From the NCBI GenBank assembly GCA_033762625.1, contig JANRLI010000019.1:1-59409 (forward strand): a stretch of DNA of 59,409 nucleotides, given 5' to 3'. Position numbers and translations under genes: made by a program. Origin of the DNA: Alphaproteobacteria bacterium. Lineage in GTDB: Bacteria > Pseudomonadota > Alphaproteobacteria > UBA9219 > RGZA01. The notes under the pieces were generated by a model that was not told the DNA's origin, ran no database searches, and saw only the letters and a list, made by a program, of their open reading frames with translations. Shown here in pieces: positions 2,184 through 51,337 of this stretch; position 1 is the stretch's first letter; each line of letters starts with the position of its first letter.

Positions 2184-3921
2184 TGAACTGGTCTTGAAAG
2201 GCTTGGCGGTTTCAGCGGGGATTGCGATTGGCCCAGCCTTTATTCTGGATAGCGCACGCCTGCATGTTCCCGAATATGCGATTAAGGCCGATGGCGTTGC
2301 CGAAGAAACCCTGCGCTTTCAAGATTCTGTCACTAAATCCCTGCGCCAAATCAAACGCATCAAATCAAAAGCAGAAAATCTTCCCGCCGATGCTGCGGAA
2401 GAAATGAACATTCTGCTGGATGCACATATTGCGATGCTGTCGGGTTCGCGCCTGATACGCGGCGTTGAAAAACGCATTGCATCTGAAAAAATAAATGCCG
2501 ATGCGGCGTTACAGCATGAAATTGCGCATCTTGCGCAAAGCTTCGCCTCGATGGATGATGCATATCTTGCCTCGCGCATGAAGGATATTCAGGAAGTGGG
2601 GCAACGACTGCTGCGCAACCTGCAAACCGAAAATGCCGATTTCACCATCAACATTCCCGAAGGCAGTGTCTTGGTTGCCGAAGACATTACGCCTGCCGAT
2701 ACTGCGCAAATCAATCCTGAGGCCGTGCAGGGCTTTGTTGCCGAGCTGGGTGGCGTTGACGGTCACACGGCGATTATGGCGCGTGCGCTTGATTTGCCAT
2801 CGGTCCTTGGTGCCGCAGGATTAAAACTGCATTGCAAAGACGGCACGATGATTGCGGTCGATGGGCTCGAAGGCGAGATTATTATCAACCCGTCTGCGGC
2901 AACCCTCGCACGCCTTCGCAAAGCGCAACTGAAATTTAAAAAAGAACGCGAACAACTCAAAACGCTTAAACGCCTTCCAGCCATTACTAGCGATGGCGCC
3001 GAAGTCATGCTCATGGCCAATCTGGAATTGCCACGTGAATTGACCAAAGCATTAGATGCAGGCGCGCAGGGCGTTGGCCTGTTCCGCACCGAATTTATGT
3101 TCATGAACCGCAAAACATTACCTGATGAAGAAGAACAGTTCATCGCCTTGCGCGGCATGGTCGAGGGGCTGAAAGGCCGCGTCATGACCATTCGTACGCT
3201 TGATTTGGGCGGCGAAAAACTATCCTCTGCGCTGGGCGATGTGCATGGCGAAAGCACCAATCCCGCGCTGGGGCTGCGCGCTATTCGTTTGTGTCTCAAG
3301 CAACCCAAATTATTTGAAACGCAACTTGCCGCCATTTTACGCGCTGCCGTCTATGGGCCTGTGCGCATTTTGTTGCCAATGATTTCCAGTGTGGAGCAGG
3401 TAAAACAAGTGCGTGAAAAAGTACATCTGGTTGCCAAACGCCTGCAACGCCGCGGTGAGGAATTGCCGGACCCATTGCCGCCGGTTGGTGTGATGATTGA
3501 AATTCCGGGCGCGGCCTTGGCCGCTGATGCGCTTGCGCAGGTTTCTGATTTCTTTTCCATCGGCAGCAACGATTTAACGCAATACACGCTCGCGATTGAC
3601 CGCAGCGATGAACAGGTTGCCGATTTATATAATCCCCTGCATCCAGCGGTACTGCGTCTTATTCAATTTAGTACCGAGGCAGCGCTGCGCGCGCGTATCC
3701 CAATCAGCCTTTGTGGTGAAATGGCTGGCAACCCCCAGCTGGCTGCATTTCTTATCGGCATTGGCATTCGCGAACTATCGATGTCACCGCCACGTTTGCC
3801 GGAAGTAAAACGAACTATTCGCGGACTTAGCCTTCTCGAATCCACCCGCCATGCTGCCAAAATAATGAGCAGTAGTGACGAAACCCTCATCAAGCAGGAA
3901 ATGGCGAATAAGCAAGTCTAA
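2176..3921 (+). CDS. ptsI: Phosphoenolpyruvate-protein phosphotransferase (Enzyme I)
   Basis: The 581-residue protein is assigned ATG 2176, which overlaps the end of ptsH by eight bases; the open frame extends further upstream only inside ptsH. It takes phosphate from PEP and passes it to HPr. The phosphoacceptor His197 lies in GGVDGHTAIMAR (the usual form is GGxTSHTAI). The PEP-binding domain has GLFRTEFMFMNR, IEIPGAALAAD, SIGSNDLTQY and catalytic Cys513 in LCGEMAGNP. No GAF domain precedes it, so this is plain EI rather than EI-Ntr (PtsP). It is the last gene of the operon. Confidence 0.94.
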   Translation: MSDELVLKGLAVSAGIAIGPAFILDSARLHVPEYAIKADGVAEETLRFQDSVTKSLRQIKRIKSKAENLPADAAEEMNILLDAHIAMLSGSRLIRGVEKRIASEKINADAALQHEIAHLAQSFASMDDAYLASRMKDIQEVGQRLLRNLQTENADFTINIPEGSVLVAEDITPADTAQINPEAVQGFVAELGGVDGHTAIMARALDLPSVLGAAGLKLHCKDGTMIAVDGLEGEIIINPSAATLARLRKAQLKFKKEREQLKTLKRLPAITSDGAEVMLMANLELPRELTKALDAGAQGVGLFRTEFMFMNRKTLPDEEEQFIALRGMVEGLKGRVMTIRTLDLGGEKLSSALGDVHGESTNPALGLRAIRLCLKQPKLFETQLAAILRAAVYGPVRILLPMISSVEQVKQVREKVHLVAKRLQRRGEELPDPLPPVGVMIEIPGAALAADALAQVSDFFSIGSNDLTQYTLAIDRSDEQVADLYNPLHPAVLRLIQFSTEAALRARIPISLCGEMAGNPQLAAFLIGIGIRELSMSPPRLPEVKRTIRGLSLLESTRHAAKIMSSSDETLIKQEMANKQV

Positions 3922-36522: not shown

Positions 36523-37323
36523 ATGGAATTTTCCCTTTACGTAAAAGCCATTCTCATGGGCCTTGTCGAAGGCCTGACTGAATTCCTGCCTGTATCATCC
36601 ACGGGGCATCTCATTTTATTTGGCGATGCCATCAAGTTCAATACCGCCAGTGCATCGGTGTTCGATGTAGTTATTCAAATGGGCGCGATTGCTGCTGTCC
36701 TCATCGCCTATTTCAAACGCTTTTCACATGTTGCGGTTTCGTTTTTTACTGAAAAGAAGTCGCAACATTTCATGGTGCTGCTCTTGCTTGCGTTTCTTCC
36801 GGCCGCTGTGTTTGGTGCCTTGCTCCATTCCGCAATAAAAGAACATTTATTCAATCCGGCTGTGGTTGCCTACAGCTTGATTGTTGGCGGTGTTATCATG
36901 CTGGCCATCGACCGCTTGCCGCTTAACATCAAGGTGAATGATGTAGACAGCATGACCCTCTGGGATGCTATCAAAATTGGTTTCTATCAATGCCTTGCTA
37001 TGATTCCAGGGGTGTCACGTTCCGGAGCCACAATCATTGGCGGCATGTTATCTGGTCTTGATAAAAAGACTGCCGCTGAATTTTCCTTCTTTCTTGCGGT
37101 TCCAACCCTTTCAGCTGCCGCGCTATATGACCTTTATAAAAGCTGGTCGTCATTGACCATGGATGATTTAGGTTTGATGGCCACCGGGTTTGTTTCATCA
37201 TTCGTATTTGCGATGCTTGTCATAACTTTTTTTATCAAGCTCATCGTTCGTTTCGGGTTCACGCCTTTCGCGCTCTACCGTATTGTTTTGGGGGCGGTTA
37301 TTTTGTGGTTGATTCCGGCTTAA
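36523..37323 (+). CDS. uppP: Undecaprenyl-diphosphatase UppP/BacA
   Basis: The 266-residue integral membrane enzyme dephosphorylates undecaprenyl diphosphate, recycling the lipid carrier for peptidoglycan and surface polysaccharide. The signature EGLTEFLPVSSTGHLILFGD lies at residues 16-35, and PGVSRSGATIIGGMLSGL later; several hydrophobic segments follow the family pattern. A strong terminator closes the transcript and marks the edge of the housekeeping block. Confidence 0.95.
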   Translation: MEFSLYVKAILMGLVEGLTEFLPVSSTGHLILFGDAIKFNTASASVFDVVIQMGAIAAVLIAYFKRFSHVAVSFFTEKKSQHFMVLLLLAFLPAAVFGALLHSAIKEHLFNPAVVAYSLIVGGVIMLAIDRLPLNIKVNDVDSMTLWDAIKIGFYQCLAMIPGVSRSGATIIGGMLSGLDKKTAAEFSFFLAVPTLSAAALYDLYKSWSSLTMDDLGLMATGFVSSFVFAMLVITFFIKLIVRFGFTPFALYRIVLGAVILWLIPA

Positions 37324-37509: not shown

Positions 37510-40500
37510 ATGGTCGATATTGCGGATGTGTTCTCCGCTAAAACCATGTGCGCATTGATGGAAACTGTGTTGAGAAATCAACCGAATAAACAATCCGGCT
37601 TTATGCTGGCACCTTTGCTTTATATGTTGGCATTGGGCGGTATTGGCGCGGCCGTGATGTTCTCCGGATATTCCCAAGTCTTGCGCAGTAATGCGGAAAT
37701 GACTGCCGTTAATACGGTTCGCCAACAACTCAACTCCGCAGGACAAACCTTATCTGCTTCCGCTGCGTTAGATAGTGCGACCAGCACTATCGTACAACCA
37801 CCCAACGTACAATTATTCAGCGCTGTCACCGATACAAGCCGTCTTCCTGGAAACTATGCCGCCGTAAACGCGACAGGTACCCCGCATGATTACGGTGTGA
37901 TTGATGTGAGCAGTGGTGTGCGCCAACTTGACCCGTGGGGTAAATATTATGTGTATTGCCGCTGGGAAAATCCTGTTTCAAATGCTTCCGCACCATCCAT
38001 CATGGTCATCTCCGGTGGTCCTGACGGATTGCTTGGAACAAAATGCGGCGATACAGTTGCGCAAGGCGATGACCGTATCAATAAGTTAACCGTCGCCGAA
38101 GCCATCAACCGCGCCAATGTGTGGCAAGTCAACAGCTCCAGTCAGGTGAAATTCGGTATTCAGGCCGATGCCGTAAAGGTCAATGATGACGGTTCAATGC
38201 AGGCAAAAAGCCTTACGCTTTCAACACCGCTTGCGATCACTTCGGGCGGTACGGGTGCAGCCGATGCAGCAACCGCACGCACCAATTTAAGCGTGCCAAG
38301 CAATACCGGTAGCGGCGCAAGCGGTACATGGAACATCGACATATCGGGCAATGCGGCAACCGCAACAGTACTTCAAACCGCGCGTAATTTCTCAATCGCG
38401 GGTTCAACGGGTTTAACTGCGCCAACCGTTTCGTTTGACGGTTCGGGCAACGTCGCGCTTGCACTTACCGGAACACTTGCACTGGCAAATGGTGGTACAG
38501 GTGCAACCACAGCGCCGGGTGCGCGTACTAATTTAGGTTCAACGGCAGTGGGTGATGCACTGTTCACTGCCGCATCGGCATCAGCAGGTCGCGGAACCTT
38601 GGGCGCAACAGCAATCGGTGATGCGTTATTCACTGCGGCTACGGCTGCTGCCGCACGCTCCACCCTTGGGCTTGGTACCATGGCCGTTCAGGATGCAAGC
38701 AATGTTGCAATTACGGGCGGTACGATTACCGGTGTAACCATCAGCGGTTCAACCATCAATGGTAACGTAAATGGTAATGCAACCTCCGCCAGCTCTGTTC
38801 CAGCATCGGGTATCACCGGTGTTGTTTCGATTGCCCAAGGTGGTACAGGCCAGACGACAGCTGGCGCAGCGCTTATTGCACTTGGCGGTAATAATGCATC
38901 AAACCTTACAACGGGTACTTTAAACCCTGCGTTGTTACCGGTTATCAGCCCGACATCAGCTGGCATGTATAACTGGGGTACGGTTGATATTTATGGCCGC
39001 GTGACTGCTGCAAATAATCTTTCGACCAATTCTATTTCCCAAGGCAATTCCGGCGTGTCCGTTTCCGATACGGGAACTGATGGCACCGTGACCATTTCAA
39101 CCGAAGGGTTAGCACGCCTCACCATCGATCAAAACGGCAATGTGGGTATCGGTACGATAACGCCAGCTGATAAACTTGATGTAAATGGTAATATTCGTGT
39201 GCGCGGCGCAGCGGGTACTGACCGCTCATTATTCTTCTCGACACTAAGTAACAAACGCTGGGCGCTTTCCGAAAACAATGTGGCGGAAAGCGGCAGCAAT
39301 CTGGGTTCAAACTTTGTTATCACCCGTTATGATGATGCGGGCACATCACTTGGTAACGCACTTGCGATTGCACGTAACACCGGCGCAATTTCAACATCAG
39401 GCGATTTAACCATTGGCGGCGCCGCCACGGCAACAGGCGGTTTCTTTGGTAGCTTCAGCGGTACATTCAACGGCACCTTCACAGGAACGGTTGCAGCAGC
39501 GGGTTCCGATAAACAGGTGCAGTTCAACAGCGGCGGTAACCTTGGCGCCGACAGCAATTTCAACTGGGATAATACCAATAAGCGTTTGGGGCTTGGTACG
39601 GCGACAGTAACAACACCGCTTGACGTAAAAGTTGATGGTGCTGGTAGCGGTATAAAAGTAGTGGGAACAAACGGAAATCTATTAGTACAAGCTGGCGGTG
39701 TAAATGGTGCTGGATTAATTTCCCAATCAAATACATCTACTAACGGCTTTGTAATTGGGACTGATTCAGGCTCGAATGCTGCTGGCTCTGTGCTACGTTT
39801 TCAAACTGCTGGTAATAATGTAGCGATAATTGATAACGCTGGAAAATTCGGAATTGGCACAACAGCACCAAATAGCTTGCTGCAGGTAAATCAAAGCGCG
39901 CCGATAACCAGTACATATTTCCTTGGTTCAAATTATGGCTGGACTACATCCGGCGGTGCTGCCTCGGTGGTCACGTATCGTAGTGCAGGTACGCAAACAG
40001 GTCTAACATCTGCCTTCGCAGCACAAAATCTTGCATATCCAACTGGCGCGGGTATGACATTCGCATCCGGTATACTTGGTGAGCTTGCGCATGGTTCAGG
40101 CACAACCGATTTCCAAAACGGCTATGGTGTATATGGTAATTGGTCGGGTGGTAGCCAAACTAATACATTCACAAATGTAGCGGCGCTGGGTGCTGGCTTC
40201 CGCGTTGGCGGCGGCACAGTGACCAATGCTTATGGCTTGCGCATCACCGACTTTGCAAATGCGAATAACGGTACCTTAACAAATACCTACGGTGTATATG
40301 TCGGCGATATAACGCCAGCCAGTGTTACACAAACGAATACACCATTTTCATTTTATGCATCCGACGCAAATGCCTATAACTATTTTGCGGGTAATGTAGG
40401 TATCGGCACAAGCGCGCCTGTTGGTAAGCTAGACATCAGTGGCCGTGAACAACATTTTGACACCAGCTTCAGCGTGTCGTCTGCGCAAGGTAGCTACACC

Positions 40501-43500
40501 GAATTCTTTGACGTTGCAAGCAGCAATAACAATGGTGCAATCAATCTAAGCGTTCGTTTAATCGGTGGAGGGTATGCTCATTACAGTGAATTCTATCATA
40601 TCTCCATGAACTATGACGATATGGGTGCCGCAGTAGGCACTGTGTATCGCTTATTGCCCGTAAACTCTACGGGTAGACGTACTTCAGCAACTTCGGGTTG
40701 GGGTAGCGGTGATTTTGCATTAGAAATGGTAAAAGCAAACATATCGACATGGACGTTCCGTGTTCGTCAGGTCGGTGCTACTGACCAAGCAAGCGGTATG
40801 GGTTATGACGCAATTATCATTGGTGATAAAACTGCAATCACCACTAAAAGTGTTACAGGCAGTGATACAAGCAATTATGCATATAATATTTTCCGTGGCA
40901 CACAGCTGACAGCAACTAATAGTGGTGTAGGTATCGGCACTGCAAACCCCGCAGCGAATTTAGATATCGGTGCACCTGGCGCAAGCCCAAGCCTGCGTCT
41001 AACGGGTACAGGCAGCATGGAATTCTACCGCCCCGCGCAAAGCCATTGGAAATTCCAGCATATGAATAATGGCTTTACATTGCAGAACAGCTGGACGGGT
41101 GCTGGCTATAATAGTGTGATTTCATTGGATGACGGATTGGGCATCGCAACAACGCCTACGTTGCGTATGGCATATGATGCGCTTGGTAACCGTGTGGGTA
41201 TCAATACCGCCACGCCAGCCGCCAGCGCGGTGATGGATCTGACATCCACCACCAAAGGCTTCTTGATGCCGCGCGTGACGACTGTTCAGCGCGATGCCAT
41301 CGCATCCCCCGCAACCGGTTTGATGGTGTATAACACCACCACCAACCTTGTGAACATTTATAACGGTTCGGCGTGGAGTGTGGCTGGCAATGATGGCACC
41401 ACTGCATTCAGCTTCCCGCAGGGAACCGTTACCGCGCCCGGCTTATATGTGACCGGTGACAGCGATACGGGCTTCTATCAATCCTCTGCGAATAAACTTT
41501 CAGTGACTGCCGGCGGCACAGAAGTCATGCGTTGGAACACGCTGGCATCTGCCGTGAATTATTTCAGTGCAACACCCGCAATCACGGGCGGTGGCCCAAC
41601 CTTGGCCGTTGATGGCAGTGATACGAATATCAATATGAATATCTCGCCCAAAGGCACCGGATCAGTAATTGTAAATCCGCAGGCTGCCGGCGCAGTTGGA
41701 TTAACGGTTAAAGCAACCGCATCACAAACCGCAGATTTGTTGCAAATTCAAAATTCATCCAGCGTTGCATTAGCTGAATTCAATTCATCAGGTTATCTGG
41801 GCATCGGTACCACCACGGTCGCTTCTACCGCGATGCTAGATTTGGTTTCAACCACCAAAGGTATGCTTATTCCGCGCATGACTACGGTGCAACGCAACGC
41901 CATTGCAACCCCTGCAACCGGTTTAATGGTGTATAACACCACCACCAATACCAGTGATTATTATAATGGTACGTCATGGGTATCATCGCTTGCCAACGCA
42001 AGTGGCGGTGAACTTGATCCCAAAGTGGGTGCGCTCACTTCCAACAATTTCTGCACGGCCAATGCCGGCGCAACCGCCATCGTGTGCAGCACCAGCGTGA
42101 TTCCGGTTGCCAATCTGGGTACGGGCACGCCATCTGCTGCAACCTATCTTCGCGGCGATGGCACATGGGTAAATACGTCCACCATTCAAAGCTTGCCTGC
42201 GGGTTCAACCGGCCAAGTGCAATTCAATAACGCCAACGCCTTCGCAGCCGATGCAGCATTCAATTGGGATAACACCAATAAACGTCTGGGCATTGGCACG
42301 GCAACGCCAGCATCAGCATTGCACGTTCAAGGTGCTTCACCTCGACTAACAATTCGTAATACTACGGCTAATGATGCTTCCATCGTTCTACAAAACAACA
42401 CGCCAACGGATATCTTTAGTATCGTGACAGATACAGGCGCAACGACTGCATTAACATCATATGGCTATATGACACTTAATGCTTCGGGCGCTTCAAGTAT
42501 GATGATGTTTAAGACAGGTGGTGGCACTGAACGTATGCGTATTACAGATACTGGCAGTGTCGGTATCGGTTCAACTACACCTGCTGCATCATCGCTTCTT
42601 GATATGGCTTCCACCTCCAAAGGCTTCCTGCCACCACGCATGACCACCGCGCAGCGCGATGCGATCGCATCGCCCGCAACCGGTTTGCAGATTTATAACA
42701 GCACCACCGGAGCGATCAATGTTTACAACGGAACCGCATGGACCGAATTAGGCGCTAGTGGTGGCACGCTTGTTACAAATGTTAGCGCATGGACAACCGC
42801 AACCTGCCCTGCAGGTTATCAGGTTTTAACATGTAACAGCTCTGCATATAATTCGGGCGGTAATGCGGTGTGCGGCGCATCGATTTCCGGTAATACATGT
42901 ACTTCGGGTTGCGGTGGTGGGCCATATATGGTTACGGCAACCTGTTATCAAAACATGTCACCCATCGGCGGGCAATGGGGCACAGCAACTAACGACCTTT
43001 ATTATACTACCGGATCTGTGGGCATCGGAACCAACGCTCCATCAGCTAAAGCGGTGCTTGATTTGACCAGCACCACCAAAGGTTTCTTGCCACCGCGCAT
43101 GACCACCGCACAACGCGATGCGATTGCATCGCCCGCAACGGGTTTGAATATATTCAATACAACCACCAATCAAATGAACGTATATGACGGGTCGGCATGG
43201 GCTGCTGTTGGTGCGGGTGCGAGTGGTGGAGCAAGCATCGCATGGTCGGTCGTAAATGTAACGGGTTCCAGCCAGTCGTGTAACACGATGTGTGCAAGCT
43301 CCGGAAAATTATGCGCCGCATCCTTCTATCAGGATGAAAGCTATACAGGTAATGGTACTGAAGTAACGCGTTACCCAGTTGCATGTTCAGGCACAATGCC
43401 AGCAGTTGGAGCGGGTGCGCATGGTTCGTGTCTTTGCTATACTGGCGGCACGGGTGCAGGTCCAGGTGGAGGCACGGGGCTTGTACAATACAATAATGGT

Positions 43501-46500
43501 GGCACTTTTACAGGGGCAGCTACACTTATATGGGATAGTATAAACAGTGCGCTCGGCATCGGCACGGCAACACCATCGACCAAAGCGGTGCTTGATTTAA
43601 CCAGCACCACCAAAGGCTTCCTGCCGCCCCGTATGACCACCGCGCAGCGCGATGCAATCGCTTCACCAGCCGCTGGTTTGCAGATCTATAACACCACCAC
43701 CAACGCATTGAACCTTTACAATGGTACATCATGGGGCGGTGTAGGCGGCGGAACCTTGGCATCGTTAACTGATGCAACCATCACATCGCCAGCCAACAGC
43801 GATATTCTGCAATATAACAGTGGCACATCTAAATGGGTGAATACGCCACTTGTATCAGCGGTCGCTGGCGCGGCAGGGCCAAGCTTCTCAGCATATATAG
43901 CTAGCGATCAGACTATTTCTGCTTCGACGTGGACAAAAGTTACGCTCGGCACAGAAGAATTTGATACCAATAACAATTTTGCGACTGGCCGATTTACACC
44001 TACGGTTGCAGGAAAATATCAACTGTCTGGAACATGTAATATCAATACACTAAATTCAGGCAACACGGTTTACTGCGCTATCTATAAAAATGGCAGCCTT
44101 GCAAAACGCTCTGTTAACTTACAAGGATCTAGCAACTCAGAGTTAAGCGCATCGGTAACGGCTATTGTTGATGCCAACGGAACAACAGATTATTTTGAAT
44201 TGTATGTCTGGTCGCAAAACACCAATCTTTATGGTGGCAGCAATGTTACCTATTTCACCGGTGGTATGCTTGCTCCACTTGCATCTGGTACTGTGGCCGG
44301 TACTGGTTCAGCAGGGTATGTTCCTGTGTGGACATCGGGCAACGCCATTACCTATGACAGCACGGCGGGCGGTCAATTCGCATGGGATTTAACAAATCAC
44401 AGCCTTGGCATCGGCACGGCAACACCATCGACCAAAGCGGTGCTTGATTTAACCAGCACCACCAAAGGCTTCCTGCCGCCCCGTATGACGACGGTTCAAC
44501 GCGATGCGATTGCATCGCCAGTTGCAGGGTTGCAGATCTATAACACCACCACAAACGCCGTGAACGTCTATAATGGCACCGCATGGGGCGCTGTTGGCGG
44601 CGGCGGGGGTTCGATTGCAACCGATACCGACGTAGCACTGACCAGTGTCGCCAATAACGACATTCTGCGTTATGACAGCGGGACATCGAAATGGAAGAAC
44701 GTGAACATCGGCACCGCGATGAGCACCACGACGATGGTGGCGAACTGGCCGGATGCAATTTACTGCCTTGACGGTGCAAGCGAAAATGTAGTCGCGATTG
44801 CCACAACTATTCCAGACTCCAATGGTCAATACCGTTATGATCTTGCAAAAGGTCCTGGCAATTACATGCTATTTAATGCCGATGGCACCTTCAACACTCA
44901 GGTCAGTCATAACTTTGGCAGCTGTAATGGTCAATCCATCACACAGTTATATGCAGCCGGAAAAGCATTCAACTTCATCGGCTCATCGCTTGCGTCGGCT
45001 GCTGCGCCTGCGGGCGGGTTGCAATTCAACAATGGTTCTGGCGTACTTGCAGGTGACTCTGCGATTATCTGGGATAACTCTAATAAAGCTCTTGGTATCG
45101 GCACGGCAACGCCATCCACCAAAGCAGTGCTTGATTTAACCAGCACGACCAAAGGCTTCTTGCCACCACGCATGACCACCGCGCAGCGCGATGCAATTGC
45201 ATCGCCAGTGGCAGGTTTGCAGGTTTATAACACAACAACAAACGCATTAAACCTTTACAATGGTACGTCGTGGGGCGGTGTTGGCGGCGGAACCTTGGCG
45301 TCACTGACTGATGCAACCATCACAACGCCTGCGAATAATGACATTCTGCAATATAACAGCGGTACTTCCAAATGGGTGAATACGCCTTTGACTGCCGCTG
45401 TTGCTGGTGCATCCGGGCCCAGTTTCTTGGTCAACAGAAACGGGGTGAACCAAACCGTATCAACCGGTGGATGGACTAAGATCCAATTCACCAATGAAGT
45501 ATTCGATACGAATAATAACTTCGATAATACAACTAATTATCGTTTTACGCCAACGGTAGCTGGCAAGTACATATTTGTGTTGAATGTAAGTTCACCCAGT
45601 GACTCGACTTTGGCTGCTGCAATATTCAAAAATGGCGTTGTTCAGTCCGTTCAATCCAGCACTTATTATCGCAATGCAGTATCCATCGTGTTGGATATGA
45701 ATGGCACAACCGACTATGTCGAAGGTAACATATACAACTACGGTGGCTCAACATTGTATGGGTTATCTTCAGAAACAAATTTTTCGGGTTCGCTTTTAGT
45801 GCCATTGGCTTCGGGTACTGTTGCTGGTACGGGTAGCGCGGGCTATGTCCCTGTATGGACCAGTGGCAACGCCGTTACCTATGATAGCACAGCGGGCGGT
45901 CAATTCGCATGGGATCTAACCAACCATAGCCTTGGTATCGGTACCAATGCTCCATCGACCAAAGCCGTTTTGGATTTGACCAGCACCACCAAAGGTTTCT
46001 TGCCACCGCGCATGACCACCGCGCAGCGCGATGCGATCGCATCGCCAACAGCCGGGTTGCAGATCTATAACACCACCACAAACGCCGTGAACGTCTATAA
46101 CGGCACCGCATGGGGCGCGGTTGGCGGCGGCGGTGGTTCGATTGCAACCGATACCGACGTAACGCTGACCAGCGTCGCCAATAACGACATCCTGCGTTAC
46201 GACAGCGGGACATCGAAATGGAAGAACGTAAACATCGGCACCGCGATGAGCACGACGACGATGCAGTCAACATGGCCGGATGCCATTCAGTGTTATGGAA
46301 CAACAGGATCATCAACTGCTTATTATAAATGGCGCAACACTTCAACAGGCCAAGTCAACTATAATATCGGGTATGGTGCCAGCGGCGCAGAACTGATAAT
46401 TAGTTTCAACAGCAGCGGTACTGTGACTTCAGCTAACGATGTTTTAGGTTCGTCATGGAGCGGCTGGTATGAAACAAACTGCTCTGTTGGCGCAACAATC

Positions 46501-47649
46501 ACAAATTTATATGCTACAGGCCGTGCCTTCAACTTCATCGGCTCCTCGCTGGCATCTGCCGCTGCGCCTTCGGGTGGTATCCAGTTTAACAACGGCTCTG
46601 GCGTATTGGCGGGTGATACTTCGTTCATTTGGGATAACACCAATAAGCGTTTGGGGATTGGTACGGCAACGCCAAGTCAATTGCTTGAAGTGCGTAAAGA
46701 TCAAGCAGGCGCTGCAACAATTGCCAAAGTTATTAATGCAAATGCAACATCGGGTTCGCAAGCAAGATTTGATTTGGCCACAGTAACTGCAAACGCATAC
46801 TCCATAATGAGTATGACAGAAAACGGTGGTGGTGTGGCTTCATTTGAAATATCAACGGGTGATGGTGTAACAAACGGAATGTACTTCACCGCCGGTTCAA
46901 CGGTAACCAATCAACCCATAATATTCCGCCAAGCCACGAACGAGCGTATGAGGATTAATTCTTCAGGTGCAGTAGGCATCGGCACGAACGCCCCAGTTGC
47001 ATCTGCATTGCTTGATATTACCAGCACCGCAAAAGGTTTCTTGCCGCCGCGCATGACCACCGCGCAACGTGATGCGATTGCTTCACCAGTGGCTGGTCTT
47101 GAAATCTATAATACCACCACCAACGCGCCGAACTATTACAACGGCACCGCATGGAGTGCGGTTGGCGGTGGTGGCTCCAGCCAGTGGACAACCGGTGCGG
47201 GCAACGTCATTTATTATAACACCGCCAATGTGGGTATCGGTACGGCAACACCGGCCGCCGCGCTGGATGTAGTGGGCGATATTCAATATACCGGCGTGAT
47301 CACCGATATTTCCGATAAACGCCTGAAAACCAATATCAACCCGCTGGCCGATGGCTCGCTTGAAAAAATATTGAAGCTGCGTCCCGTTTCATTCAATATG
47401 AAGAGCGATTTAACCGCGCTTGAATTTGGTTTCATTGCCCAAGAAGTGGAAGACGTATTCCCCGATCTGGTCAAGACCGCCAAAGACAAGGATCAAACCA
47501 AATCTGTCAATTACATTGGGTTGATTGCACCATTGGTAAAATCGGTTCAGGAATTGAACGCCACCGTTCAGGATCTGAAGAGAGAAAACGAATTACTCAA
47601 GGCCCGTCTCAATTCGATTGAAACAAAGCAAATTGAAACAAAGCACTAG
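37510..47649 (+). CDS. Giant pilin-headed, phage-tail-fibre-like adhesin with C-terminal Peptidase_S74 chaperone
   Basis: The reading frame encodes 3379 residues. Near residue 30, KQSG is followed by FMLAPLLYMLALGGIGAAV, a prepilin-like hydrophobic segment, and DPWGKYYVYCRW begins at Asp141, as in GspG/PilV-type pilin heads. GGTG tail-fibre repeats occupy about residues 240-470. VGIGT repeats and nine KGFLPPRM-type modules span about 1240-3220, with Cys-rich inserts and two C1q-like domains (about 2125-2258 and 2637-2770). The end is a Peptidase_S74 domain (SDKRLK, Ser3268 and Lys3273, FGFIAQEVEDVFPDLV) plus a coiled coil. It is probably exported, trimeric and self-cleaving. ATG 37558 (leader of about 14 residues) is an alternative start, and neither has a good ribosome site. 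Glu5 of true pilins is absent. Confidence 0.85.
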   Translation: MVDIADVFSAKTMCALMETVLRNQPNKQSGFMLAPLLYMLALGGIGAAVMFSGYSQVLRSNAEMTAVNTVRQQLNSAGQTLSASAALDSATSTIVQPPNVQLFSAVTDTSRLPGNYAAVNATGTPHDYGVIDVSSGVRQLDPWGKYYVYCRWENPVSNASAPSIMVISGGPDGLLGTKCGDTVAQGDDRINKLTVAEAINRANVWQVNSSSQVKFGIQADAVKVNDDGSMQAKSLTLSTPLAITSGGTGAADAATARTNLSVPSNTGSGASGTWNIDISGNAATATVLQTARNFSIAGSTGLTAPTVSFDGSGNVALALTGTLALANGGTGATTAPGARTNLGSTAVGDALFTAASASAGRGTLGATAIGDALFTAATAAAARSTLGLGTMAVQDASNVAITGGTITGVTISGSTINGNVNGNATSASSVPASGITGVVSIAQGGTGQTTAGAALIALGGNNASNLTTGTLNPALLPVISPTSAGMYNWGTVDIYGRVTAANNLSTNSISQGNSGVSVSDTGTDGTVTISTEGLARLTIDQNGNVGIGTITPADKLDVNGNIRVRGAAGTDRSLFFSTLSNKRWALSENNVAESGSNLGSNFVITRYDDAGTSLGNALAIARNTGAISTSGDLTIGGAATATGGFFGSFSGTFNGTFTGTVAAAGSDKQVQFNSGGNLGADSNFNWDNTNKRLGLGTATVTTPLDVKVDGAGSGIKVVGTNGNLLVQAGGVNGAGLISQSNTSTNGFVIGTDSGSNAAGSVLRFQTAGNNVAIIDNAGKFGIGTTAPNSLLQVNQSAPITSTYFLGSNYGWTTSGGAASVVTYRSAGTQTGLTSAFAAQNLAYPTGAGMTFASGILGELAHGSGTTDFQNGYGVYGNWSGGSQTNTFTNVAALGAGFRVGGGTVTNAYGLRITDFANANNGTLTNTYGVYVGDITPASVTQTNTPFSFYASDANAYNYFAGNVGIGTSAPVGKLDISGREQHFDTSFSVSSAQGSYTEFFDVASSNNNGAINLSVRLIGGGYAHYSEFYHISMNYDDMGAAVGTVYRLLPVNSTGRRTSATSGWGSGDFALEMVKANISTWTFRVRQVGATDQASGMGYDAIIIGDKTAITTKSVTGSDTSNYAYNIFRGTQLTATNSGVGIGTANPAANLDIGAPGASPSLRLTGTGSMEFYRPAQSHWKFQHMNNGFTLQNSWTGAGYNSVISLDDGLGIATTPTLRMAYDALGNRVGINTATPAASAVMDLTSTTKGFLMPRVTTVQRDAIASPATGLMVYNTTTNLVNIYNGSAWSVAGNDGTTAFSFPQGTVTAPGLYVTGDSDTGFYQSSANKLSVTAGGTEVMRWNTLASAVNYFSATPAITGGGPTLAVDGSDTNINMNISPKGTGSVIVNPQAAGAVGLTVKATASQTADLLQIQNSSSVALAEFNSSGYLGIGTTTVASTAMLDLVSTTKGMLIPRMTTVQRNAIATPATGLMVYNTTTNTSDYYNGTSWVSSLANASGGELDPKVGALTSNNFCTANAGATAIVCSTSVIPVANLGTGTPSAATYLRGDGTWVNTSTIQSLPAGSTGQVQFNNANAFAADAAFNWDNTNKRLGIGTATPASALHVQGASPRLTIRNTTANDASIVLQNNTPTDIFSIVTDTGATTALTSYGYMTLNASGASSMMMFKTGGGTERMRITDTGSVGIGSTTPAASSLLDMASTSKGFLPPRMTTAQRDAIASPATGLQIYNSTTGAINVYNGTAWTELGASGGTLVTNVSAWTTATCPAGYQVLTCNSSAYNSGGNAVCGASISGNTCTSGCGGGPYMVTATCYQNMSPIGGQWGTATNDLYYTTGSVGIGTNAPSAKAVLDLTSTTKGFLPPRMTTAQRDAIASPATGLNIFNTTTNQMNVYDGSAWAAVGAGASGGASIAWSVVNVTGSSQSCNTMCASSGKLCAASFYQDESYTGNGTEVTRYPVACSGTMPAVGAGAHGSCLCYTGGTGAGPGGGTGLVQYNNGGTFTGAATLIWDSINSALGIGTATPSTKAVLDLTSTTKGFLPPRMTTAQRDAIASPAAGLQIYNTTTNALNLYNGTSWGGVGGGTLASLTDATITSPANSDILQYNSGTSKWVNTPLVSAVAGAAGPSFSAYIASDQTISASTWTKVTLGTEEFDTNNNFATGRFTPTVAGKYQLSGTCNINTLNSGNTVYCAIYKNGSLAKRSVNLQGSSNSELSASVTAIVDANGTTDYFELYVWSQNTNLYGGSNVTYFTGGMLAPLASGTVAGTGSAGYVPVWTSGNAITYDSTAGGQFAWDLTNHSLGIGTATPSTKAVLDLTSTTKGFLPPRMTTVQRDAIASPVAGLQIYNTTTNAVNVYNGTAWGAVGGGGGSIATDTDVALTSVANNDILRYDSGTSKWKNVNIGTAMSTTTMVANWPDAIYCLDGASENVVAIATTIPDSNGQYRYDLAKGPGNYMLFNADGTFNTQVSHNFGSCNGQSITQLYAAGKAFNFIGSSLASAAAPAGGLQFNNGSGVLAGDSAIIWDNSNKALGIGTATPSTKAVLDLTSTTKGFLPPRMTTAQRDAIASPVAGLQVYNTTTNALNLYNGTSWGGVGGGTLASLTDATITTPANNDILQYNSGTSKWVNTPLTAAVAGASGPSFLVNRNGVNQTVSTGGWTKIQFTNEVFDTNNNFDNTTNYRFTPTVAGKYIFVLNVSSPSDSTLAAAIFKNGVVQSVQSSTYYRNAVSIVLDMNGTTDYVEGNIYNYGGSTLYGLSSETNFSGSLLVPLASGTVAGTGSAGYVPVWTSGNAVTYDSTAGGQFAWDLTNHSLGIGTNAPSTKAVLDLTSTTKGFLPPRMTTAQRDAIASPTAGLQIYNTTTNAVNVYNGTAWGAVGGGGGSIATDTDVTLTSVANNDILRYDSGTSKWKNVNIGTAMSTTTMQSTWPDAIQCYGTTGSSTAYYKWRNTSTGQVNYNIGYGASGAELIISFNSSGTVTSANDVLGSSWSGWYETNCSVGATITNLYATGRAFNFIGSSLASAAAPSGGIQFNNGSGVLAGDTSFIWDNTNKRLGIGTATPSQLLEVRKDQAGAATIAKVINANATSGSQARFDLATVTANAYSIMSMTENGGGVASFEISTGDGVTNGMYFTAGSTVTNQPIIFRQATNERMRINSSGAVGIGTNAPVASALLDITSTAKGFLPPRMTTAQRDAIASPVAGLEIYNTTTNAPNYYNGTAWSAVGGGGSSQWTTGAGNVIYYNTANVGIGTATPAAALDVVGDIQYTGVITDISDKRLKTNINPLADGSLEKILKLRPVSFNMKSDLTALEFGFIAQEVEDVFPDLVKTAKDKDQTKSVNYIGLIAPLVKSVQELNATVQDLKRENELLKARLNSIETKQIETKH
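43553..45090 (+). repeat. First unit of a 1.54-kb tandem module duplication (A-B)
   Basis: Unit A (43553-44404) has the KGFLPPRM module, a GGGTLASLTDATIT spacer and a C1q-like insert. Unit B (44405-45090) has the module, a GGGSIATDTDV spacer and a Cys-containing WPDAIYC insert. The same order recurs at 45091-46650 with similar length. Confidence 0.8.
43555..43637 (+). repeat. 83-bp perfect direct repeat, copy 1 (copy 2 at 44407-44489)
   Basis: The 83 bases from GGCATCGGC to CGTATGAC are identical at 43555-43637 and 44407-44489. They cover the end of a VGIGT repeat and the start of a KGFLPPRM module. Such perfect identity 852 bases apart, in frame, is a substrate for recombination that would remove or add one insert domain. 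Confidence 0.9.
45091..46650 (+). repeat. Second unit of the tandem module duplication (A'-B')
   Basis: A' (45091-45930) and B' (45931-46650) repeat the A-B layout. The flanking modules match almost residue for residue, with many synonymous base changes, while the C1q-like insert and the WPDAIQC insert differ strongly from their counterparts. Confidence 0.8.
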
Positions 47650-47661
47650 GAACTGCGCGTT

Positions 47662-48693
47662 ATGAAAAGAATTCTACTTCTTATTGCAGCGTTTATCTTT
47701 GCTTCACCGGCAGCTTTTGCGGCATGCACATCGCCCGCGGGTGTCCTTGGCTCTATGAACTGGGGTGGTGGATCGTTCCAATATTGTGATGGCACGAACT
47801 GGACAGCGTTCAGCTCCGCATCGCCTGCATCGACGCCATCGGCATACAGCTTCACCAACGTCACCGGCCAGCCACTTAATGCGGTTATAACATCGAATAC
47901 CATCACCATTTCTGGTCTTGGTGTTGTGCCGGTGCTTGTTACCGCATCGGGCGCTGGCTCGCCGCAGGTGAGTGTGGGCGGCGGCGCATGGGCAACCAGC
48001 GCAATCTTGTTTAACGGGCAAACCTTGCAGGTTCGCCAAACCTCATCCACATCCATTTTAACTGCGCGCACGGCAACCATAAATGTGGGATCTGGTACAA
48101 CAACATGGACTGTTACCACCGTTGGCGTGGTGCCCGGTTCGCAAACATTCACATCTTCTGGCACATTTACTGTTCCTGCCTTCAACTCCCTCACCGTGAC
48201 TGTAAAAGGTGGTGGTTCAGGCGGGCAAGGTGGTAATGGCGCATCTTATCCATGCGGTTACAGCTCATGTTCGAATCCTGGGGGTGCTGGTGGCTCTGGC
48301 GGAAACAGCAGCTTCAATGGAACGGTGTTCGGTAATGGAGGCGTATTCGGTGCGAATGGTACAGCATCGGGCGGTGATACCAATACGGCTGGTGCGGGTG
48401 CTGCGGCAGGTGGCGGTGGTACAGGCGGATGCCGCAGTTATGGCTGCGGCTACAGCACATGTACCACATGTGGCAGTAATGGCTCGGCAGGCAACCCCGG
48501 CGGACAGGCCGTTAAAACATATACGCCGGCCATGTTGACGGGTGGCAGTTCTATCAGTGTAGTGGTTGGCGGCGGTGGCGCTGGTGGTGCAGGTGGATGT
48601 TACAGCTATGGCTGTGGTTACAGCACATGCACCAGTTGTGCAGGCAACGGTGGAAACGGAACTGCGGGCAGTGTCGCTATCACTTGGAACTAG
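47662..48693 (+). CDS. Secreted glycine-rich protein, possible tip adhesin of the fibre
   Basis: The 343-residue protein has a Sec signal peptide (MKRILLLIAAFIFASPAAFA). A short domain, CTSPAGVLGSMNWGGGSFQY followed by CDGTNW, comes next, then an Ig-like domain (about residues 55-155: SAYSFTNVTGQPLNAVITSN). The C-terminal glycine-rich domain begins TFTSSGTFTVPAFNSLTVTV, as in phage tail glycine-rich adhesin domains. It contains runs of Gly and repeated CGYS(T/S)C motifs, with SYGCGYSTCT present twice. It starts 12 bases after the giant gene, so they are probably cotranscribed. T2/S16 gp38 adhesins cap fibres with a polyglycine sandwich; a similar role here is inference. Confidence 0.75.
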   Translation: MKRILLLIAAFIFASPAAFAACTSPAGVLGSMNWGGGSFQYCDGTNWTAFSSASPASTPSAYSFTNVTGQPLNAVITSNTITISGLGVVPVLVTASGAGSPQVSVGGGAWATSAILFNGQTLQVRQTSSTSILTARTATINVGSGTTTWTVTTVGVVPGSQTFTSSGTFTVPAFNSLTVTVKGGGSGGQGGNGASYPCGYSSCSNPGGAGGSGGNSSFNGTVFGNGGVFGANGTASGGDTNTAGAGAAAGGGGTGGCRSYGCGYSTCTTCGSNGSAGNPGGQAVKTYTPAMLTGGSSISVVVGGGGAGGAGGCYSYGCGYSTCTSCAGNGGNGTAGSVAITWN

Positions 48694-49334: not shown

Positions 49335-50333
49335 ATGGCGTCGCATAAAAAGCTGTTGCTTTTGGCTTTGATGTTTCTGGCTTTTTTTACATTCGAACAT
49401 GCGAATGCGGCAGGTGATGCTGCGCAGGCTCCATTAAAAAACAAAGCCGTACCGCACGATCCGCATGCTGGCCTCGACCGCATGAATGGCTACAGCATCA
49501 AGGACGTTGCGGATTTCACATCCAAATGGGCATTCGTCACTGTGCGCTACCGCAAGGATACGGGTGAAATGCGCCTTACCTATGCGAATGACAGCGCATG
49601 GAAAGCGTTGCAAGAGGGAAAAACCGATTATCCTGATGGTGCCATGTTCGCCAAGATCGGTTTGATGACCGCCGATGATCCGGGCTTCGTTTCTTCGCTC
49701 GTTCCATCGGGCGCAAAGCGTTACCAGTTGATGGTGATGGACAGGGCAAAGAACAAAGACACCGATGGCTGGGGTTATGCCGTTTTCGATGCGAATGGCA
49801 AAACATTCGGCGATGACCCCATTGAAAAACAAAATGCATGTCATGCATGTCACAAAATGGTGCCGGAACGTGGCTATGTGTTTTCACAACCTGTAAAACT
49901 GAATATGGGCTTGCCCATGCAGTTAAAGATCAGCGCCAAAGACGATGCGGATAAGATCCTTTCCAGTCGTTTGGTGTTTGAAACCGTTGGTCTTGATGCC
50001 TTGCCGGAAAAACTGAAAAAGGAATTACCTGATGGCACAACTAAACTGCGTCAATTGCGCGGTGAGCTGGAAAAAACATTCTTTGTAGGTACATTTGGCG
50101 AAATTCGCCCTTCCTTGGCGAAGGAAGCACTGAAAAGCGATATGCCCGCCGCCTTGGTCAGTAATGATGGACGGTTTTTTTCTCTGGCATTCAAGGAGCC
50201 GAATAAACCTGCCTGTGATTTACCTAATGGTAAAAAGGGTGTGATGATGAAGGTGTTGTTCGTAGAAATCCAACGCGGCGATAAAAAAGATACCGACATA
50301 ATCGACCGCCAATCCTATTGTGATGGGCTTTGA
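49335..50333 (+). CDS. Periplasmic cytochrome P460-like c-type haem protein, copy 1
   Basis: The 332-residue protein has a signal peptide ending at ANAA. A P460-like domain follows: FVTVRYRKDTGEMRLTYAND, AKIGLMTADDPGF, YQLMVMDR and GWGYAVFD. The haem-attachment motif CHACH is at residues 169-173. Cytochrome P460 proteins bind c-type haem and act on hydroxylamine or nitric oxide; the function here is unproved. The extra C-terminal 130 residues, with an LPEKLKK element and a two-Cys end, lie beyond the usual P460 length. A good ribosome site, TTGGAGA, precedes it. Its stop overlaps the start of the paralogue. Confidence 0.82.
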   Translation: MASHKKLLLLALMFLAFFTFEHANAAGDAAQAPLKNKAVPHDPHAGLDRMNGYSIKDVADFTSKWAFVTVRYRKDTGEMRLTYANDSAWKALQEGKTDYPDGAMFAKIGLMTADDPGFVSSLVPSGAKRYQLMVMDRAKNKDTDGWGYAVFDANGKTFGDDPIEKQNACHACHKMVPERGYVFSQPVKLNMGLPMQLKISAKDDADKILSSRLVFETVGLDALPEKLKKELPDGTTKLRQLRGELEKTFFVGTFGEIRPSLAKEALKSDMPAALVSNDGRFFSLAFKEPNKPACDLPNGKKGVMMKVLFVEIQRGDKKDTDIIDRQSYCDGL

Positions 50334-51337
50334 TGCGACTGATGAAATCCACTCATGCATCGATCTCTGCGGCATTTTTTCTCTTCGCACTGATGCCTGC
50401 AATGCTAATGGCTGAGGAAAAGCCCGCGCAAATAGCGTCCTCACATATGCCCGCTATGCATCATGACCAATTTGGCGGTCTGGATTCCATGAACGGGTTC
50501 AAGTTCAAGGATTATTCCGATTTTGCGACCAAATGGAATTACGTCACCGTGCGCTACCGCAAGGATACCGGCGAAATGCGCCTGACCTATGCCAATGATG
50601 CGGCGTGGAAAACACTCATGTCGGGCAGTATCGATTATCCAAAGGATGCCGCCTTTGCAAAGATCGGTCTGATGACCGCGGATGATCCCGGCTTTACCAG
50701 TTCGCTGGTGCCATCGGGCGCACAGCGTTACCAGTTGATGGTGATGGATAAGGAAAAATTCAAAGACACCGATGGTTGGGGGTATGCGCTGTTCGATGAA
50801 AACGGCAAAACCTTTGATGGTGATCCAACCGAAAAATCCGCTGCATGCCATGCCTGCCATAAAATGGTGCCGGATCGCGGCTATGTGTTTTCACAGCCAG
50901 TAAAATTGAATATGGGATTGCCGTTCAATATCAAAATGAAGATAGCAACGCCCGAACAAACTGTTGCTGCACGCGTCACTTTTGAAACGGTAAAGGTGGA
51001 TACGTTGCCCGAAAAACTGAAAAAGCAGGTCCCAGCAGAATTCAAAGAGGTTCGCCTGCTACGCGGGGAAATGGAAAATGCCATCTTCTATGGCACCATT
51101 GATGAAATACGCCCGACACTTGCCGTTGAATTGCTGCGCAGCAAATTGCCAACCGCACTGGTGGGGAAGGATGGCAAACTGTTCTCATTGGTCATAAAAG
51201 GCCAAAAGACTGAATGCGAATTGCCTGATGGTAAAAAAGGGATGCCGGTACGCGGTATTTTCACCGATGTTGTGCGCGGTGAAAAGAATCCCAAACTTTT
51301 TGTGCGCGATCTTGCGTTCTGCGAGCCAACGCCTTAA
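50333..51337 (+). CDS. Periplasmic cytochrome P460-like c-type haem protein, copy 2
   Basis: The 334-residue paralogue of the previous gene arises from tandem duplication. The central domain is nearly identical (YVTVRYRKDTGEMRLTYAND, LMTADDPGFTSSLVPSGAQR, ACHACHKMVPDRGYVFSQPV). CHACH is at residues 172-176. The signal peptide and the 130-residue C-terminal extension diverge more. ATG 50333 overlaps the previous stop by one base (TGATG). Its stop overlaps the convergent beta-propeller gene by four bases. Confidence 0.82.
   Translation: MRLMKSTHASISAAFFLFALMPAMLMAEEKPAQIASSHMPAMHHDQFGGLDSMNGFKFKDYSDFATKWNYVTVRYRKDTGEMRLTYANDAAWKTLMSGSIDYPKDAAFAKIGLMTADDPGFTSSLVPSGAQRYQLMVMDKEKFKDTDGWGYALFDENGKTFDGDPTEKSAACHACHKMVPDRGYVFSQPVKLNMGLPFNIKMKIATPEQTVAARVTFETVKVDTLPEKLKKQVPAEFKEVRLLRGEMENAIFYGTIDEIRPTLAVELLRSKLPTALVGKDGKLFSLVIKGQKTECELPDGKKGMPVRGIFTDVVRGEKNPKLFVRDLAFCEPTP

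Follow-up and report, generated by a model that had tools for sequence, protein, structure and literature searches.

Among the closest described systems are the mosaic adhesive trimer (MAT) prey-recognition fibres of Bdellovibrio bacteriovorus. These proteins, typically of about 1000 residues, comprise a mosaic shaft, TNF-like or C1q-like modules and an S74 end, with a conserved N-terminal and a variable distal part. Their N-terminus consists of a signal peptide plus a beta N-domain of about 130 residues. The authors who described them could find no structural relative of this region, and did no more than raise the possibility of an interplay with type IV pili (PMC10769870).

The modular type IV pilins, such as PilB and PilC of Streptococcus sanguinis, join a pilin module to functional domains (PMC8179133). 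A survey published in 2021, which found such proteins via the N-terminal motif IPR012902, listed pilin plus IPR030392 (S74) among the 15 commonest architectures, took the S74 domain to be a peptidase and named a protein of 860 residues as its extreme multi-domain example (PMC8179133). TcpB and CofB, which combine a pilin head with beta domains, form homotrimers at the pilus tip (PMC9565799, PMC5207764), and it is known that filament growth proceeds from the tip and that tip complexes end in a capping subunit devoid of the glutamate at mature position 5, Glu5 (PMC10191384; PMC5207764). The Micavibrio genome paper, in the part of its text considered here, notes pilins and no fibre of the kind described below (PMC3189940). 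PilV of IncI plasmids, represented by the Shufflon_N profile, carries a variable adhesive C-terminus on a pilin head. We know of no pseudopilin with an attached fibre, and in the literature, searched within open-licence papers only, we found no MAT-like fibre with a pilin head described.

Results

The window analysed here, a stretch of 59,409 nucleotides, belongs to an alphaproteobacterial genome of 2.23 Mb in 26 contigs. The fibre gene lies on its plus strand (37510..47649), and the frame of 3379 codons that had been predicted was confirmed to be open and uninterrupted throughout. The ATG at 37558 (METVLRNQPNKQSG) yields a 14-residue leader that is closer to the short leaders of the relatives than the product of the first ATG; with this start the protein would have 3363 residues. 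A chimeric assembly join was ruled out because the same fusion of head and fibre recurs in 27 of the 33 genomes of the order.

The shaft contains a segment (39085..39393, plus strand; residues 526–628) that is homologous to Bd3182, a MAT fibre whose crystal structure is known (8ojn; phmmer E 1.6e-8). This is the best PDB match and qualifies the shaft as MAT-type, trimerisation being inferred. Matches to PHROG tail-fibre and virion families are distributed along it. The original prediction had reported GGTG, VGIGT and KGFLPPRM repeats, and these were indeed present, as five GGTG, fourteen GIGT/S and nine KGF/MLxPRM copies; the nine KGFLPPRM/AQRDAI repeats (41254..47065, plus strand; residues 1249–3185) correspond to nine stretches of PHROG 1325. 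A block of about 515 residues is duplicated in tandem (43552..46650, plus strand; residues 2015–2527 and 2528–3047), with 70% amino acid identity between the copies and 86% between the DNA blocks, which suggests that the fibre has grown by repeat expansion. There are also two C1q/TNF-fold modules of about 135 residues each, both on the plus strand. The first (43876..44337) was modelled by AlphaFold with moderate confidence (AF2 pLDDT 71), and its model matched C1QL1 in Foldseek (E 8.8e-8, TM 0.67/0.77); the second (45421..45885) is 52% identical to the first and scored just under the Pfam C1q cut-off (3.7e-4).

The predicted C-terminal fibre-folding chaperone was readily recovered: Peptidase_S74 matches residues 3268–3322 with a Pfam E-value of 6.8e-17 and 62 bits against a cut-off of 22, and in a genome-wide search (7.7e-19) it was the sole S74 domain of the genome. 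This intramolecular chaperone (47311..47475, plus strand) carries SDKRLK at residue 3268, in agreement with the SDxxxK catalytic motif that we required of an S74 domain. Compared with the closest species, identity is 88% over residues 1–710, falls to about 60% in part of the middle and is only about 35% at the S74 end. The N-terminal end, composed of the head and the proximal shaft, is thus conserved and the distal end is variable.

The first 200 residues or so constitute a divergent GspG-like (pseudo)pilin, to judge by sequence comparison. A probable class III leader (37558..37599), basic and ending in G^F, with cleavage after the glycine inferred, is followed by a hydrophobic alpha1-type helix, FMLAPLLYMLALGGIGAAVMF (37600..37700), and by a GspG-like globular head (37700..38223), all on the plus strand. 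In the alignment of the heads from the order, glycine occupies position −1 in 27/27 and phenylalanine position +1 in 26/27, while mature position +5 holds proline in 26 heads, alanine in one and glutamate in none. The heads therefore meet the definition of a class III signal, a short basic leader with G at −1 and then a hydrophobic stretch; the Glu5 criterion of the type IV pilin superfamily is not met. Its absence does not exclude the head as a tip subunit, since GspK-type tip subunits are also without Glu5 (PMC5207764, PMC10191384). The globular part bears the motif QLDPWG.YY.YCRW...ISAGPDG, which includes DPWG..Y.Y and GPDG, and two invariant cysteines, Cys150 and Cys179 of the protein (Cys129 and Cys158 in alignment numbering).

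Single sequences barely reveal this relationship. Pfam T2SSG gave only E 0.18–0.19 against single heads and, over the whole genome, had this fibre head as its sole match (E 0.18); no single-sequence profile reached a curated pilin cut-off for the head, the Pfam N_methyl search of the genome did not list it, and NCBIfam and PADLOC returned nothing relevant. In the profile–profile comparison with an alignment of 11 alphaproteobacterial GspG sequences, the globular part aligned with E 8.8e-6 and a score of 38.4, the best of 60 column-shuffled controls scoring 19.4. The N-terminal helices formed a separate alignment (E 2.5e-4) collinear with the globular one; each of our profile–profile E-values for the head refers to a single comparison. 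Against the PDB, the head profile matched only pilin chains, and weakly (E 0.5–1.7). AF2 modelling with only four sequences gave pLDDT 31, and the model was not used. The pilin/pseudopilin-like head of the original prediction thus stands as a relationship detectable only through alignments. On these sequence comparisons we have little doubt that the head is related to pilins, and consider this well supported; its fold is unproven, the structure prediction having failed. The proposed search of the first residues with Shufflon_N gave no match among 25 heads at E 10, and identity with PilV was rejected. The fibre also differs from PilV in its S74 end and far larger size, and no recombinase was seen among the window genes scanned.

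A class-wide search revealed two further giant frames, of 4765 and 5041 residues, in another alphaproteobacterial family (loci L134:8905-19902 and L135:1-11690; genomes G348 and G267). Their divergent heads, G^N(I/V)FFTLFGAV...DPWG..YGYC, align over 168 columns with the present head (E 7e-18) and over 101 columns with GspG (E 2.8e-6); upon shuffling only the globular GspG columns, the latter score dropped from 45 to at most 30. No SDxxxK motif was present in the part of these two fibres inspected. Elsewhere, among 398 genomes sampled across the phylum, two marginal matches were the only trace of the head.

Within the order, the 27 full heads start long frames, many of which are cut by contig ends; a 28th genome with only a short prepilin match was left out of the count. 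S74 was found in 31/32 relatives of the order and in 0/26 other genomes of the class. The longest frame, of 9801 residues, has the same pilin head and S74 (genome G010; L127:2-6856 with L126:9481-16002), and its extreme C-terminus beyond S74 resembles a transmembrane segment. Two congeneric drafts (L136:8445-15007 and L137:1229-10781) have the frame broken between shaft and S74, the copy in the window being intact; inspection by eye made no repeat tract or slippery site evident in these two draft assemblies, and nothing was concluded regarding a programmed frameshift.

The fibre gene lies outside any pilus operon. Its conserved surroundings are bacA and a DUF2336 gene, both upstream of it in many relatives. 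Here bacA (uppP) occupies 36523..37323 on the plus strand; the same upstream synteny is seen throughout families f1 and f3, and for some members of f2. A companion gene on the plus strand (47662..48693), probably co-transcribed with the fibre, begins 12 bases past the fibre stop and encodes a Sec signal, a CxxPxG..QYCxGxxW domain and a Gly-rich C-terminus (PHROG short tail fibre, 5e-5). In genome G006 (L130:2204-9952), Sec-signal fibre genes, two of which end in S74, lie downstream of the pilin-headed fibre. Their CxxPxGVAGD N-terminal domain resembles that of the companion protein, and they are possible heteromeric partners. Two adjoining cytochrome P460-domain genes (49335-51337) are found downstream in the window.

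The flanks on both sides and the remaining window genes are housekeeping, no capsid, tube, sheath or integrase genes were found nearby, and phage and viral collections contain no relative of the head, in accordance with the host-encoded, non-prophage setting originally proposed. Neither of the outcomes that would have refuted the prediction, a head unrelated to pilins or a locus inside an intact prophage, was obtained. A tail-fibre gene of a phage or tailocin, as a remnant of a prophage or of an extracellular contractile injection system, could account for the S74 domain and the PHROG matches on the shaft. The housekeeping flanks, the lack of a viral relative of the head, the occurrence in 27/33 genomes and the bacA/DUF2336 synteny make this origin hardly tenable. 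Owing to the flanks, the order-wide distribution and the absence of phage or viral relatives, we consider the fibre gene to be a resident chromosomal gene.

The prepilin peptidase and pilus genes that the prediction proposed to look for elsewhere in the genome were located. An operon on contig 11 encodes a secretin, GspC-like, GspE, GspF and PilN/PilO-like proteins and ends with a Glu5-less prepilin, G^IAIGPILF; a second operon encodes secretin/GspE/GspF, Glu5 pilins and a GspB-like protein, and PilT-type ATPases are also encoded. The one A24 prepilin peptidase detected, on contig 12, adjoins two Glu5-less prepilins, G^IAIG(V/M)ILF. The genome thus holds the full set of components sought: prepilin peptidase, assembly ATPase, platform and secretin. 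The short G^IAIG prepilins are not listed by the N_methyl model because they are without Glu5. Prepilins with the near-invariant G^IAIGPILF start, which have no Pfam family, are found throughout the order, here beside pilus genes and the peptidase (L058:5092-7045, L059:3133-11990). The start motif of the Glu5-less prepilins was present in 33/33 genomes of the order; some of these matches are due to chance, and the reversed control pattern was nearly absent. Being common to the short prepilins of the lineage, the absence of Glu5 is not sufficient proof of a position at the tip.

The N-terminus of the head aligns without gaps to these short prepilins (E 4.6e-7 in hhalign), which are also the only other matches, weak ones, of the head profile in several genomes. 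Since they are linked to the assembly machine, the alignment ties the fibre to that machine by sequence.

Discussion

We take the gene product, on the best reading of our data, to be a giant modular pilin, in which a Glu5-less GspG-like module is joined to a mosaic fibre of the MAT/phage type and to an S74 autochaperone. We file it as a variant of the modular pilins joined to a MAT kind of fibre; it is not a MAT member by its N-terminus, where a pilin module stands in place of the signal peptide and beta N-domain, and it is more than three times longer than a typical MAT. Contrary to what the original prediction implied, a combination of pilin and S74 is not without precedent, the survey of modular pilins having already counted it (PMC8179133). 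That survey would miss heads such as this one, which does not match the Pfam model of the IPR012902 motif. The fibre differs from TcpB and CofB as well, which possess Glu5 and have neither S74 nor tail-fibre repeats, TcpB being only about 420 residues long.

In the mechanism we propose, three chains would cross the inner membrane and remain anchored there by their heads, the fibre would trimerise in the periplasm with the help of S74, which may cleave itself at Ser3268, and the prepilin peptidase would remove the leader after the glycine. The three heads would next serve as the first or the capping subunits of a type IV filament built by the secretin/PilB/PilC-like machine, and this machine would drive the folded rod through the secretin to the outside, where it would be a tip adhesin. 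By analogy with the homotrimeric tip pilins (PMC9565799), the heads might fill the last three positions of the filament, which would explain how a trimeric rod sits on a helical filament. Domain content, conservation and the presence of the machinery are observed in the sequences rather than inferred; cleavage, incorporation into a filament, tip location and export are inferences, made without expression or microscopy data.

It is probable that the fibre is borne by a type IV filament of one or the other operon. Two other routes have to be weighed. The protein may form the tip of a pseudopilus built by a type II secretion system, that of the second secretin/GspE/GspF operon, or be released by that system, instead of belonging to a long pilus. 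The similarity of the head to GspG and the existence of that operon, with its GspB-like protein, are consistent with such a role. The N-terminus, however, has its closest counterparts in the short prepilins encoded in the first operon and beside the peptidase rather than in the second operon's own Glu5 pilins, and there is no T2SSG match elsewhere in the whole genome, so that we regard this role as unlikely but not negligible. Nor do we favour an ordinary signal anchor, by which a MAT-type surface protein merely resembling a pilin would reach the surface without any type IV filament. The signal peptide and beta N-domain of the Bdellovibrio MAT fibres (PMC10769870), the Sec-type signals of the companion fibres of G006 and the weak single-sequence pilin scores could be cited in its support. 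The invariant glycine at the cleavage site, the collinear GspG-like similarity in two lineages and an N-terminus shared with machine-linked prepilins nevertheless render it improbable.

We lean, with some reserve, towards a position at the pilus tip, where the fibre would act as a tip adhesin. To our knowledge, no tip pilin approaches a rod of about 3000 residues, let alone the 9801-residue frame of one relative, and this counts against the tip. The T4 distal fibre has about 1000 residues, by analogy with which the rod might be, as a rough guess, about 200 nm long. Recognition of targets, be they other cells, glycans or surfaces, is inferred, and the variability of the distal part is what would be expected if the targets vary. 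Prey recognition in particular is doubtful, the lifestyle of the organism being unknown.

We suggest, as a tentative generalisation that may well fail, that these proteins form a lineage-wide class of Glu5-less GspG-like pilins bearing giant trimeric fibres (3,000 to about 9,800 residues) at type IV filament tips, which would be a retractable counterpart of the Bdellovibrio MAT fibres and would have been missed by the published survey of modular pilins. The covalent union of a MAT-type shaft with a pilin module offers, for one lineage, a testable answer to the question of how MAT-type fibres are attached to the cell. Our results also suggest that the S74 domain of modular pilins acts as a chaperone of fibre folding and not as a secretory peptidase, and that many adhesins of this kind lie hidden among Glu5-less pilins. 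They suggest, too, that rods several thousand residues long may be exported, already folded, by type IV filaments.
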